In this document: piece after piece, positions 43,568 to 50,877 of the stretch | Position numbering within the stretch: position 1 is the first letter of the stretch | How the letters are laid out: every line of letters begins with the position of its first letter | Made by a program: the position numbers and the translations under genes | From: Deltaproteobacteria bacterium | GTDB taxonomy: Bacteria; Desulfobacterota; Desulfobaccia; Desulfobaccales; 0-14-0-80-60-11 | Assembly (NCBI GenBank): GCA_021813445.1 | Contig: JAKAKP010000110.1 | Coordinates: forward strand, 1-63,196 | DNA length: 63,196 nt | Reading direction: 5' to 3' | The notes under the pieces: generated by a model | Seen by the model: only the letters and a program-made list of their open reading frames with translations | The model's database searches: none | What the model was told of the DNA's origin: nothing

Positions 43568-44754
43568 TGGATCCTGTACCTGCTGCCGAAATCACCGCCC
43601 GGGTGGCGGCCCTGCAAGCAGGGCTGGCCCGGGAAGGCCTGGCCCTGGCGCTGATCCGCCAGACTGCGGACCTGTACTATTACACCGGCACCCTGGCGGA
43701 CGGCTGGCTGGCCGTCAGCCCGGGGGTAGAGCCGCTCCTCCTGGTGCGCCGGCCCCAATACCGCCTGCAGGAAGCGGCGCCGCCCTGGCCCCTGGCTTTT
43801 TACGGGGATCTGAAAGAGCTGCCGCTCCTGCTAGCCCAGAGCGGCTTCGCGGCTGCAGGGCCCCTGGGGTTGGAGCTGGACGTGATGCCCGTGGCTTTCT
43901 TCCAGCGTTTTCAGAAATTGTTTCCCCAAAGGACCTCAAAGGATGTTTCCCCGGTGATCCGCCGGCAACGGATGCTCAAGAGCGCCTACGAAATCGAGCA
44001 GCTGCGCCGGGCCGCCAAAAATCTAGACCAGGCCCTCACGGATGCTCCACGGCTGCTGCAGCCCGGGGTCAGCGAAATGGAAGTGGCCGCCAACCTGGAA
44101 TACCGCCTGCGGCTCCTGGGACACCAGGGGTTGGTGAGAATCCGCACCTGGAACCTGGAATTGTTCTATGGCCACGTCCTCTCCGGCGTCTCCGGGGTTC
44201 AGGCCGCTTATACCGATACCCCCAGCGGCGGCCCGGGTTTTTCTCCCGCGTTTCCCCAGGGAGCTGGTAATAAGAAACTGGCCCCCGGAGAGCCCATCAG
44301 CATCGACCTATTCGGCTGCTTCAACGGTTACGTGGTGGACCAGACCCGCATGTATGCCCTGGAATCCATGCCGCCCCGGGCCTGGGACGCGTTCCGGGTG
44401 ATCGAGGAACTCTACCGGCTCTTTACCGAACTGGCCCGCCCCGGAGTCATGGCCGGGGACATCTATCAACGCCTCTGGCAGGAAGTCAGGGAGCGGGGCT
44501 ATGAGGACTATTTCATGGGCCGGGGCCCGGACCGGGTCAGTTTTCTGGGCCACGGCCTGGGGCTGGAGGCGGATGAGTTCCCCTTGCTCACCGCCCGTTT
44601 CCCCTATCCCCTGGCCCCGGACATGGTCCTGGCCTTTGAACCCAAGATCTTCCTGCCGGAGATCGGTATGATCGGCCTGGAGGACACCGGGCGCATCACC
44701 CCCGAGGGGGTGGAATGGCTCACCATTACCCCCCGGGAAGTGATGGTGCTTTAA
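43564..44754 (+). CDS. M24 metallopeptidase (Xaa-Pro aminopeptidase family)
   Basis: 396 residues. An N-terminal creatinase-like domain (about 1-145) precedes the pita-bread catalytic domain. Metal ligands are Asp in SIDLFGCFNGYVVDQTR (both Asp), His in FLGHGLGLEADE, Glu in LAFEPKIFL and Glu in GLEDTG. The usual enzymes cut N-terminal residues ahead of Pro. It overlaps the LUD fusion by 4 bp (ATGATG), so it is translationally coupled to it. ATG at 43564 or 43567 may serve as start. Confidence 0.88.
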   Translation: MMDPVPAAEITARVAALQAGLAREGLALALIRQTADLYYYTGTLADGWLAVSPGVEPLLLVRRPQYRLQEAAPPWPLAFYGDLKELPLLLAQSGFAAAGPLGLELDVMPVAFFQRFQKLFPQRTSKDVSPVIRRQRMLKSAYEIEQLRRAAKNLDQALTDAPRLLQPGVSEMEVAANLEYRLRLLGHQGLVRIRTWNLELFYGHVLSGVSGVQAAYTDTPSGGPGFSPAFPQGAGNKKLAPGEPISIDLFGCFNGYVVDQTRMYALESMPPRAWDAFRVIEELYRLFTELARPGVMAGDIYQRLWQEVRERGYEDYFMGRGPDRVSFLGHGLGLEADEFPLLTARFPYPLAPDMVLAFEPKIFLPEIGMIGLEDTGRITPEGVEWLTITPREVMVL

Positions 44755-44762
44755 ACAGGTAT

Positions 44763-45755
44763 ATGAACCTCAAAGCCACCTCCAATTTCAAGCAGCGGCT
44801 CCTGGCCATCTCCATATCGGTATTACTGAGCTCCGGGTTGATGGCCCTGAAGTTCTATGCCTATTGGCTGACGGATTCCGCGGCCATTCTTTCCGACGCC
44901 CTGGAGTCCATCATCAATGTGGTGGCCTCCTCCTTTGCCCTGGGGAGCGTCATCTTTGCGGCCAGGAGCCCGGACCCCAGCCATCCGTATGGCCACGGCA
45001 AGGTGGAGTTCTTTTCCGCAGGGTTTGAAGGCGCGCTCATCATCTTTGCGGCCTGCGGCATCTTTTATCAGGCCTGGCCGCGGATCTTCCAGCCGCATAC
45101 CCTGCCGCATCTGGGCGGGGGGCTGCTAATCCTGGTGGGGGTCAATCTCGCCAACCTGCTCTTGGGGGCCGGGCTGGTAATGATGGGCAGACGCACCAAT
45201 TCCTTAGTGCTCGTTGCCGATGGCAAACATATCTTGACCGATGTCTATACCACCGGGGGAGTGTTGCTGGGACTGGCATTGGTGCTGTGGACCGGTTGGC
45301 TCTGGCTGGACGGGGCGGTGGCCTGCCTGGTGGGGCTCAATATTGTGGTTACTGGCACCAGACTGGTGTTTCAAGCTGCCGCCGGGTTGATGGACACCTC
45401 CGATCCCCGGCTGCTGGCAGAGATTTCCGCCATCCTCCAGAAGCACCGCAAAAGCATCTGGATCGACGTGCACCAGCTCCGGGCCCGGCGCTCCGGGGAT
45501 ATCGTCCACCTGGATTTCCACCTGATTCTCCCCAGGGACCTCTCCCTGGAGGAAGGCCACCGGGAGGTCAAGGAGCTGGAGAAGATCTTTCAGGACCATT
45601 TCGGCAAGAGCGCGGATATCCTCATCCACGTGGACCCTTGCGCCAGGCCCATCTGCCCCGTCTGCGGTTTCGAACCCTGCGAACACCGCCAAGCCGACAC
45701 CAGGCAGCAGAGCCTCTGGCAAACCGCAGTCGTTACCGCCAAGCCGGAGGAGTGA
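44763..45755 (+). CDS. Cation diffusion facilitator (CDF) transporter
   Basis: 330 residues from the ATG at 44763, 9 bp after the peptidase; reading frames from further upstream are not needed. Six membrane helices with the metal-site signature AAILSDALESIINVV in helix 2 and HPYGHGKVEFF just after helix 3. The C-terminal cytoplasmic domain ends in an extra Cys-rich segment (DPCARPICPVCGFEPCEHR) that could bind metal. It exports Zn2+, Fe2+, Mn2+ or similar ions against protons. Confidence 0.88.
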   Translation: MNLKATSNFKQRLLAISISVLLSSGLMALKFYAYWLTDSAAILSDALESIINVVASSFALGSVIFAARSPDPSHPYGHGKVEFFSAGFEGALIIFAACGIFYQAWPRIFQPHTLPHLGGGLLILVGVNLANLLLGAGLVMMGRRTNSLVLVADGKHILTDVYTTGGVLLGLALVLWTGWLWLDGAVACLVGLNIVVTGTRLVFQAAAGLMDTSDPRLLAEISAILQKHRKSIWIDVHQLRARRSGDIVHLDFHLILPRDLSLEEGHREVKELEKIFQDHFGKSADILIHVDPCARPICPVCGFEPCEHRQADTRQQSLWQTAVVTAKPEE

Positions 45756-46094: not shown

Positions 46095-46703
46095 TCACTT
46101 TCTCTGTAACCGCCAGGCCACCCAGGTAAAGCTCTTTTCCGGGGGGAGTTCGATGGACCATTCATCCCGGGTGCGGCGCTGGCTGAGACTCCAGCCCGCG
46201 GCTTCATAGAGCTGCTGCAAGGGCTCCTCCTGGGTGTCCCGGAAGCCGGAAAGGATCAAGGTCCCCTCCGGCGCTGTCAGCCGGCTGAATTCTTCCACTT
46301 TCCCCAACTGCACCGCGGCCGGAAGATTGGCCACCACCACCTGGAAGGCCCCCCGCAGGCAGTCGCTGGAGCCCCGGACCACCTGGACCGCGGCGGCCAG
46401 GTCATTGCTCCGGGCGTTTTCCCGGGTGAGAAGCACTGCCTGCCTGGAGAGGTCCACCCCCAGGCACAGACCCGCGCCCGCCGCGGCCCCGGCCAGGGCC
46501 AAAATTCCCGAACCGCAGCCCACGTCCAGGAGACGCTTTCCGGCCAGAGGGGTTTGGCCCAGCAGTTCCAGGCAGAGGCGGGTGGTGGGATGGCCGGGAG
46601 GGAAAGCGGTCCGGGCCCGCACCGTGAGCACTCTCTCTCCGGGCCGCAGCCGGCAGGGGTGCCAGGGAGACTTCAGCACCAGACCCGGCAATCGCACCAG
46701 CAA
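46095..46703 (-). CDS. PrmA-like methyltransferase without the N-terminal domain
   Basis: 202 residues from a TTG with AGAGGA upstream. The SAM motif I is LLDVGCGSGILALA, the acidic motif CLGVDLSRQAV and the catalytic-loop motif VVVANLP; the RTAFPPGHPTTRLCLELL segment before it is typical of ribosomal protein L11 methyltransferase. The N-terminal substrate domain of PrmA is shortened (202 against about 290 residues), so the target may not be L11. It is transcribed alone, opposite to its neighbours. Confidence 0.78.
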   Translation of the reverse strand: MLVRLPGLVLKSPWHPCRLRPGERVLTVRARTAFPPGHPTTRLCLELLGQTPLAGKRLLDVGCGSGILALAGAAAGAGLCLGVDLSRQAVLLTRENARSNDLAAAVQVVRGSSDCLRGAFQVVVANLPAAVQLGKVEEFSRLTAPEGTLILSGFRDTQEEPLQQLYEAAGWSLSQRRTRDEWSIELPPEKSFTWVAWRLQRK

Positions 46704-46982: not shown

Positions 46983-47462
46983 ATGGAAAAGATCCTTCTA
47001 ACCCGGGTCGGCTATGAGAAAATCATCAGGGAATTGGAGATTCTCAGCCGCGTGGAGCGCCCCCAGATCGTCCGGGAAATAATGGAGGCTGCGCAAGAAG
47101 GACGCCTGGAGAAGAACCAGGATTTTCAAGCCGCCATCGCCCAACGGCAGCGGTTGGAGAAGCGGATCAGACAATTGCAGCAGATTCTGGCCAACGCCGA
47201 AGTGTTGGTGGGCAGCAATCTTCCCCCCAACAAGGTGCGGTTTAATTCCCGGGTGCGCATTTTTAACCTCCGGGATGGCCGGGAGCAGGAATTCCTCCTG
47301 GTGAGCGCGGTGGAGGCCGATGTGGGCCAGGGGCAATTATCCCTGACCTCGCCTCTGGGGCGGGCTCTGCTGGGACGCAGCCTGGGCGAATCCGTGCAGA
47401 TTCAGACCCCCCGGGGCCCCAGGACCTACCGGATTCTGGATATCCAAATGGAAAAGGCATGA
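46983..47462 (+). CDS. GreA/GreB-family protein with charge-reversed tip
   Basis: 159 residues, standard GreA length: an N-terminal coiled coil (about 1-75) and a C-terminal FKBP-like domain (RIFNLRDGREQEFLLV, LTSPLGRALLGRSLGESVQI). GreA rescues backtracked RNA polymerase by placing two acidic tip residues in the secondary channel. E. coli has HGDLKENAEY; this protein has EGRLEKNQDF, so the catalytic Asp is Arg and the Glu is Lys. It probably binds the channel without stimulating cleavage, as Gfh1/TraR-type factors do (inferred). Its stop overlaps the next gene, a CDF transporter, by 4 bp. No strong ribosome-binding site is visible. Confidence 0.82.
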   Translation: MEKILLTRVGYEKIIRELEILSRVERPQIVREIMEAAQEGRLEKNQDFQAAIAQRQRLEKRIRQLQQILANAEVLVGSNLPPNKVRFNSRVRIFNLRDGREQEFLLVSAVEADVGQGQLSLTSPLGRALLGRSLGESVQIQTPRGPRTYRILDIQMEKA

Positions 47463-48406
47463 ACGATAATCACTCTCTCCAGGCACATGCGCACCGTTTT
47501 GAGAGCAGTTCCTGGCGTCTGTCCCTGGCCTTCTGGACCCAATTCGTCTTTTTCGTCGTGGAACTGGTGGGAGGGTTCCTCACCAACAGCCTGGCTCTGT
47601 TGGCGGACGCGGGCCATATGTTCAGCGATGTCGCGGCCCTGGGTCTGAGCTTTCTGGCCTTAAAATGGACCCTCAGGCCGCCCACCTCCCAGAAGACCTA
47701 CGGCTACCACCGGCTGGAAATCCTGGTGGCCCTGCTCAACGGCGTGGCCCTCTGGGTCATGTCCGCGTATATCTTTTACGAGGCCTACGAGAGAATTTCT
47801 CAGCCGCCTGCGATCAACACCGTGCCCATGCTGATCATCGCCAGCCTGGGGCTCTTGATCAATCTCCTGGGGGTGGTCATCCTCTATCCCAGCCGGGAGC
47901 ACGGGATCAATCTCCGCTCCGCGTTTCTCCATCTGGCCGCGGACTCCCTGGGCTCAGTGGCCGCGGTGGCCGCGGGCGCCGCCATCCTGCTGAAAGGCTG
48001 GTACTGGTTTGATCCGGTAGCCGGCGCGGTCATCGGGGTGATGATTATCATCGGTAGCTGGCAACTGGTCCGGGAGGCCACGGATATCCTCATGGAGGCT
48101 GCACCCCGGCATATCGATCCGCTGGAGGTGACCGCGGCCCTGGAAGAGCATCCCCTGGTGGAGAAGGTCCACGATCTGCACATCTGGACCATTGCCTCCG
48201 GGATTTACGCCCTCAGTGTTCATGTGGGTATCCATAACCGCGAAGACCGGGACTGCCTCACTTGGGAGCTGGAGGAATTGTTGCGCCACCGCTTCGGCTT
48301 GGAGCATAATACCATTCAGATAGAAGGCCCGGGGTTCCATGATCCCCGGGTGTGTCCTTTAACCCGTCTGCAAGGATTGATCAAGGGGAACCACTATCAC
48401 CACTAG
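47459..48406 (+). CDS. CzcD-type CDF metal efflux protein
   Basis: 315 residues, six helices. The metal-site motifs are LALLADAGHMFSDVAALGL (helix 2) and SAFLHLAADSLGSVAAV (helix 5), with HxxxD pairs typical of zinc-type CDF proteins. The N-terminus (NDNHSLQAHAHRFE) and the extreme C-terminus (KGNHYHH) are His-rich. It should export Zn2+, Co2+ or Cd2+ in exchange for H+. It overlaps the GreA-like gene by 4 bp, an unusual pairing. Confidence 0.9.
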   Translation: MNDNHSLQAHAHRFESSSWRLSLAFWTQFVFFVVELVGGFLTNSLALLADAGHMFSDVAALGLSFLALKWTLRPPTSQKTYGYHRLEILVALLNGVALWVMSAYIFYEAYERISQPPAINTVPMLIIASLGLLINLLGVVILYPSREHGINLRSAFLHLAADSLGSVAAVAAGAAILLKGWYWFDPVAGAVIGVMIIIGSWQLVREATDILMEAAPRHIDPLEVTAALEEHPLVEKVHDLHIWTIASGIYALSVHVGIHNREDRDCLTWELEELLRHRFGLEHNTIQIEGPGFHDPRVCPLTRLQGLIKGNHYHH

Positions 48407-48441: not shown

Positions 48442-50877
48442 ATGTCACCTAACCGCTGGGAACTGAAACCGGAAAGCCTGCGCGCTGTCTGCGACCCTGA
48501 CAGCCTGGGGTTTGAAAGCACCATGGATCTGACTCCCTCCAAAGAAAAGGTGGTGGGTCAGGATCGGGCCAGGCATGCCCTGGAGTTCGGCCTCGGAGTC
48601 AAGGACCCGGAATACAATATCTTTGTGGCCGGACCCCCCCGGGCCGGAAAAACGGAAATGATCAAGGCCTACGTGGCGGAGCTGGCCGCGTCTGAGCCGG
48701 CGCCTCCGGACTATATTTATGTCTATAATTTCAAGGATCCGGAGAAACCCAAGGCCTTGGCCCTGCCCCCGGGCAAAGGCCGGTCCCTCAAGGGTGACAT
48801 GGAGGACTTGATCTCCACCCTGAAGGTGCAGATTCCGGAGGTGTTTGAAAGCGAGGACTACTCCCAGCGCCGGGAAGCCCTGGTGCAGCGCTTTGCCCAG
48901 GATCGCAACGCCATGCTCCAGCAGTTGGACGAAAAGGCCACCAAAGAGGGTTTCATCCTCAACATCTCCCAAACCGGCTTGATGATCTTCCCCGGCAAAG
49001 AGGGCAAACCCATGAGCGAGGAGGACCTCAAAGCCCTCAACGATGAGGAGCGGGAAGCCCTCCGCCAGAAGTCCGGCGCCCTGCATAACGAAATGAATGA
49101 AGTCATCCGCAAGATCCGGAAAATGGAAAAAGAATTCCAGGAAATGGAGAAGAAGCTGGATCAGGATGTGGCCCTCTATGTGGTGGGGCACCTCATCCAG
49201 GAAATGAAGGAAAAATACCGGGATCTCACCTTGGTGACGGATTACTTCCAAGAAGTGCAGGACGATATCCTGAAAAATATCGAGGACCTGAAGCGGCGGC
49301 CGGGAGCCCAGGGGCCTTTTCCTTTCCCCACGCCGGAGCCCAGTTTCGTCCAATACCAGGTGAACGTCTTTGTGGACCACTCCGGCACCAAGGGCGCGCC
49401 GGTGATAATGGAGAATAATCCCACCTATCCCAACCTCTTCGGCGCAGTGGAGCGCCGCGCCCAATTCGGGGCCCTGGTCACTGACTTTTCCCTCATCCGT
49501 TCCGGCGCCCTGCACCGGGCCAATGGCGGCTACCTCATCCTGGAGGCCATGGACCTGCTGCGCTGGTATTTTTCCTATGAGGCTATGAAACGCTGCCTCA
49601 AAGACCGGCAGATCAAGATCGAGGACCTGGCGGAGCAGCTCGGCGTGATTTCCACCCGCTCCCTGCAGCCCCAGCCCATTCCCTTGCAGGTCAAAGTGGT
49701 CCTCATCGGCGATCCCTATGTGTACCAGATTCTCTATGCCTATGATGAGGATTTCCACAAGCTCTTCAAGATCAAGGCCCATTTCGATTGGGAAATGAAG
49801 AAGACCCAGGACCATATCCAGAAGTTTTGCGAGGCTGTGGCCGGCTATATCCACGAGGAAAAGCTCATGCCGGTGCACAAAACCGGCATGGCCCGTCTCC
49901 TGGAATATGCCGGAGAATTGGCCGGGCACAAGGAAAAGCTCACCCTGCAATTGAAGGAAGTCCTGGACACTTTGAAGGAGGCCAATTACTGGGCCAAGAG
50001 CAACACCCACGAGGTGATCTTCGGCACTGACGTGGAAAAGGCCATCCAGGAGAAGATCTACCGCTCCGATTTGCCGGAAGAGAAGATGCAGGAATTCATC
50101 GACGAAGGCATGCTCTTCATCGAGACCAGCGGCAAGGTGGTGGGCCAGGTCAACGGCCTCTCCGTCTACGCCCTGGGCGACCACGCGTTCGGGCGTCCCA
50201 GCCGCATCACTGCCACCATCGCCCTGGGTAAGGAAGGCGTGGTGGCCATTGACCGGGAAGCCCAGATGGCCGGCAATATCCACAACAAAGGGGTGATGAT
50301 CCTGGCCGGGTACCTGAAGAGCCACTTTGCCCAGGATAAGCCCCTGACCCTGTCCGCCAGCCTCTGTTTCGAACAGAGCTACGGCATGGTGGAAGGGGAC
50401 AGCGCTTCCGGCGCGGAGCTCCTGGCCCTGCTTTCGGCCCTGGCCGACATGCCCCTGGCCCAAAACATCGCCATCACCGGCTCCGTCAGCCAGCGGGGCG
50501 AGTCCCAGCCCATCGGCGGTGTCAACTGGAAGATCGAAGGTTTCTATAAAGTCTGCAAGGCTCGCGGCCTGGACGGCACCCAGGGAGTGGTCATCCCCAA
50601 GGCCAATGTCCAGGACCTGATGCTGAAGAAGGAAGTGGTGGACGCGGTCCAGGCCGGCCAGTTCCATGTCTGGGCCATAGGTCATATTGATGAGGCTCTG
50701 GAACTCTTCATCGGCGTGCCTGCGGGCCAGCGCCAGGCAGACGGCTCCTGGGAGCCGGATACGGTCAATGACAAGGTGGATAAAAAACTGCGGCAGATGA
50801 TGGAACTGGCCAAAGAGCTGATGAAAGGCGAAGAAGAGGCAAAAAAAGGCGCTCCTGCAGCCCCTCCGAGCTCTTGA
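48442..50877 (+). CDS. Lon-like AAA+ protease (LonB/YcbZ type)
   Basis: 811 residues from the ATG at 48442 with GAGGAGG 6 bases upstream. The N-terminal ATPase domain has Walker A AGPPRAGKTEM (about residue 62) with a long helical insert (about 145-290, many Glu/Lys). The C-terminal proteolytic domain of family S16 has the catalytic Ser in GDSASGAELLALL (about 653) and Lys in GGVNWKIEGF (about 696). There is no Lon N-terminal substrate domain and no membrane helix. It degrades misfolded or regulatory cytoplasmic proteins. It is a single gene downstream of the CDF transporter. Confidence 0.9.
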   Translation: MSPNRWELKPESLRAVCDPDSLGFESTMDLTPSKEKVVGQDRARHALEFGLGVKDPEYNIFVAGPPRAGKTEMIKAYVAELAASEPAPPDYIYVYNFKDPEKPKALALPPGKGRSLKGDMEDLISTLKVQIPEVFESEDYSQRREALVQRFAQDRNAMLQQLDEKATKEGFILNISQTGLMIFPGKEGKPMSEEDLKALNDEEREALRQKSGALHNEMNEVIRKIRKMEKEFQEMEKKLDQDVALYVVGHLIQEMKEKYRDLTLVTDYFQEVQDDILKNIEDLKRRPGAQGPFPFPTPEPSFVQYQVNVFVDHSGTKGAPVIMENNPTYPNLFGAVERRAQFGALVTDFSLIRSGALHRANGGYLILEAMDLLRWYFSYEAMKRCLKDRQIKIEDLAEQLGVISTRSLQPQPIPLQVKVVLIGDPYVYQILYAYDEDFHKLFKIKAHFDWEMKKTQDHIQKFCEAVAGYIHEEKLMPVHKTGMARLLEYAGELAGHKEKLTLQLKEVLDTLKEANYWAKSNTHEVIFGTDVEKAIQEKIYRSDLPEEKMQEFIDEGMLFIETSGKVVGQVNGLSVYALGDHAFGRPSRITATIALGKEGVVAIDREAQMAGNIHNKGVMILAGYLKSHFAQDKPLTLSASLCFEQSYGMVEGDSASGAELLALLSALADMPLAQNIAITGSVSQRGESQPIGGVNWKIEGFYKVCKARGLDGTQGVVIPKANVQDLMLKKEVVDAVQAGQFHVWAIGHIDEALELFIGVPAGQRQADGSWEPDTVNDKVDKKLRQMMELAKELMKGEEEAKKGAPAAPPSS

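Follow-up and report, generated by a model that had tools for sequence, protein, structure and literature searches.

What does a GreA protein do when both of the acidic residues with which it should hold Mg in the active site of RNA polymerase (RNAP) have become basic? The question is raised by a gene in a stretch of 63,196 nucleotides from a deltaproteobacterium of the class Desulfobaccia (contig JAKAKP010000110.1, assembly GCA_021813445.1); this whole stretch is hereafter referred to as the window. According to the usual description, the great majority of organisms have Gre or TFIIS factors, whose essential part is the acids at the tip. In Gre, the role of D41 and E44 as the Mg-holding acids is established (PMC7527559).

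The GreA homologue of the window

The greA homologue of the window (46983-47462, + strand) encodes a protein of 159 amino acids and is the only Gre gene of its genome; it was identified by profile matches, predicted fold and structure matches. Both Gre domains are present above the cut-offs (PF03449, E-value 6e-18; PF01272, E-value 2e-22). With 135.6 bits, the protein lies slightly below the cut-off of TIGR01462 (139), and it is below the cut-offs of all GreA/GreB equivalog models, the best giving 139 bits where 167 are required (NF001261). The AF2 model has the Gre fold, with a pLDDT of 92. The N-terminal coiled-coil hairpin comprises residues 8-70 (47004-47192, + strand; limits taken from the AF2 secondary structure), and the C-terminal docking domain PF01272 (47226-47447, + strand) keeps the loop S-P-L-G-R-A-L-L-G. 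In a Foldseek search, the model aligned with a TM score of 0.88 to E. coli GreA (1GRJ) and of 0.87 to RNAP-bound Gfh1; its matches to GreA structures range from 0.88 to 0.92. Judged by its residues, the surface that docks on the β' rim helices appears to be present as well. The proposal of an earlier note on this DNA that the fold is normal outside the tip is borne out by these data. The protein is a true descendant of GreA.

The window protein shares with E. coli GreA its domain order, length, docking loop and residue numbering, and it stands, as sole Gre, in the place of the usual greA. The two differ at the tip, which in the window is E39-G40-R41-L42-E43-K44-N45 (47097-47117, + strand; codons gaa gga cgc ctg gag aag aac). 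Here D41 is replaced by Arg, K43 by Glu and E44 by Lys, a further Glu is gained at position 39, and G40 and N45 are kept. Outside the class, the canonical pattern is x-G-D41-L-S/K-E44-N. The alignment shows two more departures in the hairpin, R37 being replaced by Ala and K52 by Ile. The protein therefore has the domains and the fold of the Gre family and lacks its acidic pair D41/E44. The earlier note had described exactly this, Arg and Lys at the two Mg-holding positions of a tip EGRLEKN, as a feature of a single protein; the change is in fact class-wide, and the name GreA given by annotation may be misleading in these genomes.

Distribution and origin of the inverted tip

In our genome set, the class and the order of the window coincide and comprise 29 genomes from two families and 11 genera, in which 25 intact GreA proteins could be read. 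D41 is lost in all 25, and none has both D41 and E44; E44 survives in a single protein, that of G012, with the tip GRVEEN. Seventeen tips have the form G-R-[LV]-E-[KRE]-N, one is GGVEKN and seven are unrelated (e.g. GLPSPP, GLSEPG). R41 occurs together with K44 or R44 in 16 of the 25. In the outgroup, by contrast, there are acids at both positions in 137 of 137 Gre sequences. The outgroup consists of 76 sequences from other bacteria (Nitrospirae, Firmicutes, Chloroflexi, Bacteroidetes and others), 60 from the same phylum and E. coli GreA. The 60 phylum sequences were drawn from about 250 Gre-bearing genomes, 30 of them from genomes picked mainly for low scores, and a further exception elsewhere in the phylum is possible. 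These low-scoring GreAs of other phylum families were considered as parallel cases and rejected, all 30 having acids at both positions. Tips that are unusual yet acidic were seen in a Chloroflexi genome (TDIAEEE, L083) and in a member of the window's phylum (FGDLTDN, L224).

An assembly error or a single odd genome is ruled out as the source of the change, since the same motif was recovered in 17 genomes of two families with differing synonymous codons; R41 is encoded there by CGC, CGG, CGT or CGA. When the tip columns are left out of the alignment, the GreA tree recovers the class as monophyletic (SH-aLRT 100). Six of the seven genomes with unrelated tips could be placed in a polymerase tree, where they form one clade (SH-aLRT 91). 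The most economical history has a single conversion in the ancestor of the class, followed by one loss of the new tip in a subclade. We also considered an ancient paralogue that replaced a lost GreA. In the tree, the class is a single clade that branches on a long stem among canonical GreAs, and most phylum members, too, have just one Gre; a change of GreA in place is therefore the simpler explanation, although a paralogue may have replaced it. A search for viral carriers of the variant gave one weak match of 37 residues only.

A single Gre per genome

The earlier note had suggested that a canonical greA be looked for elsewhere in the genome. There is none, neither in the genome of the window, which is 97% complete and has one locus each by PF03449 and PF01272, nor in any genome of the class. 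With both models, more than one locus per genome was never found among the 29 genomes; that a second Gre was overlooked by a single domain model is thereby ruled out. One of these genomes, G022, consists of one contig (3,282,536 bases), which we take to be the closed chromosome of Desulfobacca acetoxidans ASRB2 (PMC3156406), a species that the NCBI taxonomy places in the class Desulfobaccia. It contains one Gre, with the tip DGRLEKN. The absence of any other GreA is also the first half of what the earlier note had named as evidence against its reading, the second being cleavage activity of this protein.

Selection on the tip

Between the two families, the tip (residues 38-45) is 77% identical, compared with 40-45% for the rest of the hairpin and 54% for the docking domain. 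In the genus of the window, pN/pS is 0.09 for the tip and 0.22 for the whole gene, and in the other family it is 0.14 and 0.31, with tip pS values of 0.58 and 0.77, respectively; the tip figures come from stretches of eight codons and are indicative. No other stretch is as well conserved between the families, although synonymous divergence is high; the inverted tip therefore appears to be under selection, and the comparison indicates that it is maintained wherever it is present.

The derived genus g5 has the opposite pattern, with an indicative pN/pS of 0.47 for the tip and 0.08 for the whole gene. It belongs to the clade in which the inverted tip was lost, composed of genera g3, g4, g5 and g9 (L014-L020); D/E39 and, in most cases, E43 and D47 are still acidic there. 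The AF2 model of a g5 GreA keeps the fold, with a pLDDT of 66 in the tip block. These figures indicate that only the tip was released in this clade and that the rest of the protein probably stays constrained. That a class has kept the body of GreA and its docking site, together with a tip that is strictly conserved but reversed in charge, suggests a single event in which cleavage was lost or rebuilt, and a use for the new form.

RNA polymerase and docking residues

RpoB and RpoC from 20 genomes of the class and 20 of the outgroup were aligned with those of E. coli. The β' rim helices 671-686, which receive Gre, the catalytic triad, β E813/D814 and the bridge helix are conserved in the class as they are in the outgroup. 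The trigger loop, including H936, is also conserved, with two class RpoC sequences being truncated in the aligned sites. Since the rim residues are conserved, the docking site for Gre is intact. On the side of GreA, the C-terminal docking loop keeps S121, P125, G127, A129, L130 and G132 across the class, and S124 is replaced by Ala in four proteins. DksA is present, with an intact DPxDRA tip.

The class departs from residues that other bacteria conserve at 27 RpoB/RpoC sites (L259-L278), among them β G1039V, β' E386V and β' G524R in E. coli numbering. The catalytic, bridge-helix, trigger-loop and rim sites checked contain none of these 27 substitutions, and a compensating change of the polymerase there was rejected on these grounds.

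Proposed function of the inverted GreA

With both Mg-holding acids gone and the fold and docking surface normal, stimulation of cleavage of the Gre type is not expected. We therefore lean, with some reserve, towards a secondary-channel factor that docks and does not stimulate cleavage, and that is probably a brake or a competitor. The conserved docking residues of both partners suggest that this GreA would dock on the rim of the secondary channel and insert its hairpin. Because G40, N45 and the spacing between them are kept, R41 and K44 would occupy the places of D41 and E44 and would face the active-centre acids β E813/D814 and β' D460/D462/D464. A positive charge there would be expected to work against binding of the second Mg ion, which the acids would have held. 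The protein would then have no catalytic role and would brake or compete for the channel, probably conditionally, like TFS4 and Gfh1. The class would live without Gre-stimulated proofreading, and would rely on intrinsic hydrolysis by the polymerase, on DksA and on other rescue routes. The change itself arose once, in the ancestor of the class, and has been kept by selection, one subclade later dropping the tip and retaining the rest.

Known factors of related design give this proposal some background, and TFS4 and the E. coli tip mutants give it precedents. In archaea, TFS4, a TFIIS paralogue of Sulfolobus, has a KKK tip in place of DE and is a potent inhibitor; RRR also works, and other TFIIS-type factors become inhibitory when given this tip alone (PMC5715097). 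TFS4 resembles the window protein in that its catalytic tip acids became basic, as they did in the 16 class members with R41 and a basic residue at 44, and in that it is thought to enter the secondary channel. It differs in being a zinc ribbon protein, a fold unrelated to that of Gre and absent from the window protein, so that the likeness is by analogy only; it is also an extra, virus-induced paralogue beside a normal TFS1 (PMC5715097), whereas the window protein is the only Gre. If the proposal is true, the class would be a bacterial parallel to TFS4 with no cleavage factor left.

Gre-fold factors of the secondary channel are a known kind, as are non-cleaving variants such as Gfh1 and Rv3788. 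Gfh1 of Thermus (2ETN, 2F23, 3AOI) is a Gre homologue that does not promote cleavage, and the match of the window model is to its RNAP-bound form. However, the tip of Gfh1 is acidic and Gfh1 is an anti-GreA factor beside a working GreA, while the window protein has a basic tip and no GreA beside it. Rv3788 of M. tuberculosis is likewise a Gre homologue without cleavage activity; unlike the window protein, it has retained the two acids and accompanies another Gre that works (PMC3132773, PMC4598747). Closest in position are the E. coli greA alleles D41N, D41A and E44K, which change the same two residues, K44 being identical to that of the window. The effects of D41N and E44K are stronger than those of a greA deletion, and D41/E44 mutants keep RNAP binding and inhibit elongation at high concentration (PMC3078854). 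These are laboratory mutants, whereas the tip of the window is natural and appears to be maintained by selection. For cyanobacteria and other Gre-less taxa (PMC7026648, PMC4598747), as for the class, Gre-stimulated cleavage is expected to be absent from a free-living lineage. These taxa have no Gre gene at all, while the class retains the Gre body; cyanobacterial RNAP has raised intrinsic hydrolysis (PMC7026648, PMC4598747), whereas the polymerase sites checked in the class are ordinary. A search of the open-access literature found no description of a natural Gre with a basic catalytic pair as the sole Gre of a whole class.

It is plausible, if somewhat doubtful in our judgement, that a charge reversal at the tip has made the only cleavage factor of the class inhibitory or pause-stabilising. 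Against a brake it can be said that a sole Gre which inhibited strongly and constitutively would be a burden to the cell, and that the polymerase sites checked show no compensating change. If the proposal holds, the class would be a natural system for how cells keep transcription accurate without a cleavage factor and with the channel still filled. Since D. acetoxidans is in culture and has a closed genome, cutting, braking and mere occupancy of the channel can be told apart directly by experiment.

Exchanged charges and the question of relocated acids

Position 39 is acidic in 23 of the 25 class proteins and in 4% of the outgroup, and position 43 in 24 of the 25 and in 0% of the outgroup; the exceptions are Gly39 in two g8 genomes and Ser43 in one. 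On the evidence of the alignment, acids and bases have swapped places in the tip and were not merely lost. Basic residues have also disappeared nearby. Gre factors have a basic patch in the distal hairpin that meets the RNA 3' end (PMC3132773). R37, which is basic in 80% of sequences elsewhere, is lost in all 25 class proteins, and K52, basic in 98% elsewhere, is lost in 19. We take these two residues of the distal hairpin to belong to that patch.

The new acids are the basis of the main rival to a brake, and a real one, namely that E39 and E43, with D47, hold the metal, that the basic residues only balance the charge and that cleavage is still promoted. At 39 and 43 the acids are almost as invariant as the pair that was lost, and relocation may have preserved some metal binding; the new acids mostly persist in the subclade that lacks R41/K44, where they are more constant than that pair. 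On the other hand, they give way to Gly or Ser in the exceptions above, and with G40, N45 and the residue count kept, residues 41 and 44 should point towards the active centre as before. No second Gre is available to do the cleaving, and in M. tuberculosis a Gre with Arg at the equivalent of E44 still cleaves, yet the equivalent of D41, which is lost throughout the class, is essential in the same protein (PMC3132773). Only the change at D41 is thus clearly disabling, and D41 mutants of E. coli GreA have reduced or no cleavage (PMC3078854). On balance, we consider relocated catalysis unlikely, and retain a docking factor that does not stimulate cleavage.

A second alternative is that cleavage has been dispensable since the ancestor of the class, and that the protein is kept for its docking domain or for occupancy of the channel, for example against DksA, the chemistry of the tip being irrelevant. 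The wide divergence of the tip in g3, g4, g5 and g9, where the docking domain stays, fits this idea, as do the low pLDDT of the g5 tip, the presence of DksA with an intact tip of its own, and E. coli GreA D41A E44Y, which is still toxic on overexpression (PMC7527559). Elsewhere in the class, however, no part of GreA is more conserved than the new tip, a pattern that drift does not explain. Irrelevant tip chemistry suits the derived clade more than the entire class, for which we regard it as quite improbable; a non-cleaving channel factor whose inverted tip matters remains the reading that we prefer.

Neighbouring genes

Directly downstream of greA is a gene for a CDF-family cation exporter, ZitB/CzcD-like (47459-48406, + strand). 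The two genes overlap by 4 bp (ATGA, 47459-47462), as the earlier note had stated, and the same overlap is frequent among loci of the class. A promoter scan found no sigma-70-like site near greA, a result that by itself says little. The adjacency of greA and the CDF gene occurs in both families and is therefore ancestral in the class. The exporter is nevertheless a facultative neighbour. It is missing between greA and the next gene at five of 25 loci (G007, G021, G022, G023 and G026). At one more locus (G027, L319), the 391 bases between greA and the Lon-type gene hold a CDF remnant, recognised by an 87-residue match, and the loss is apparently in progress. These six loci include both states of the tip. 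Over the 25 loci, CDF presence is independent of the tip state (Fisher p = 1.0; the genomes are not independent). The earlier note had taken the overlap as a sign that metal stress and transcription control are linked, but given that a translational overlap alone is ordinary operon packing, that the gene is lost irrespective of the tip, and that D. acetoxidans keeps GRLEKN without it, a metal-responsive unit of GreA and exporter is very improbable, and a functional metal link beyond a probable shared transcription of greA and the CDF gene is not supported.

A gene for a Lon-type AAA+ protease (48442-50877, + strand) follows the exporter in the window. Its product contains the domains AAA_32, LonB LID (LonB_AAA-LID), LonC helical and Lon_C. 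Such a gene is found downstream of greA, or of greA and the CDF gene, at every class locus whose contig reaches far enough. CDF and Lon-type genes were also sought near the 76 outgroup greA loci, within the available flanks, and neither was found. It is possible that the functional tie of the Lon-type protease to greA is stronger than that of the exporter.

Two further genes are located upstream of greA in the window. A second CDF exporter (44715-45755) is closest to MntE-type models and is near greA only in the genus of the window. A methyltransferase (46095-46703, - strand) matches only the C-terminal half of PrmA (profile positions 129-289 of 296), and it is a conserved neighbour of greA in much of the class.
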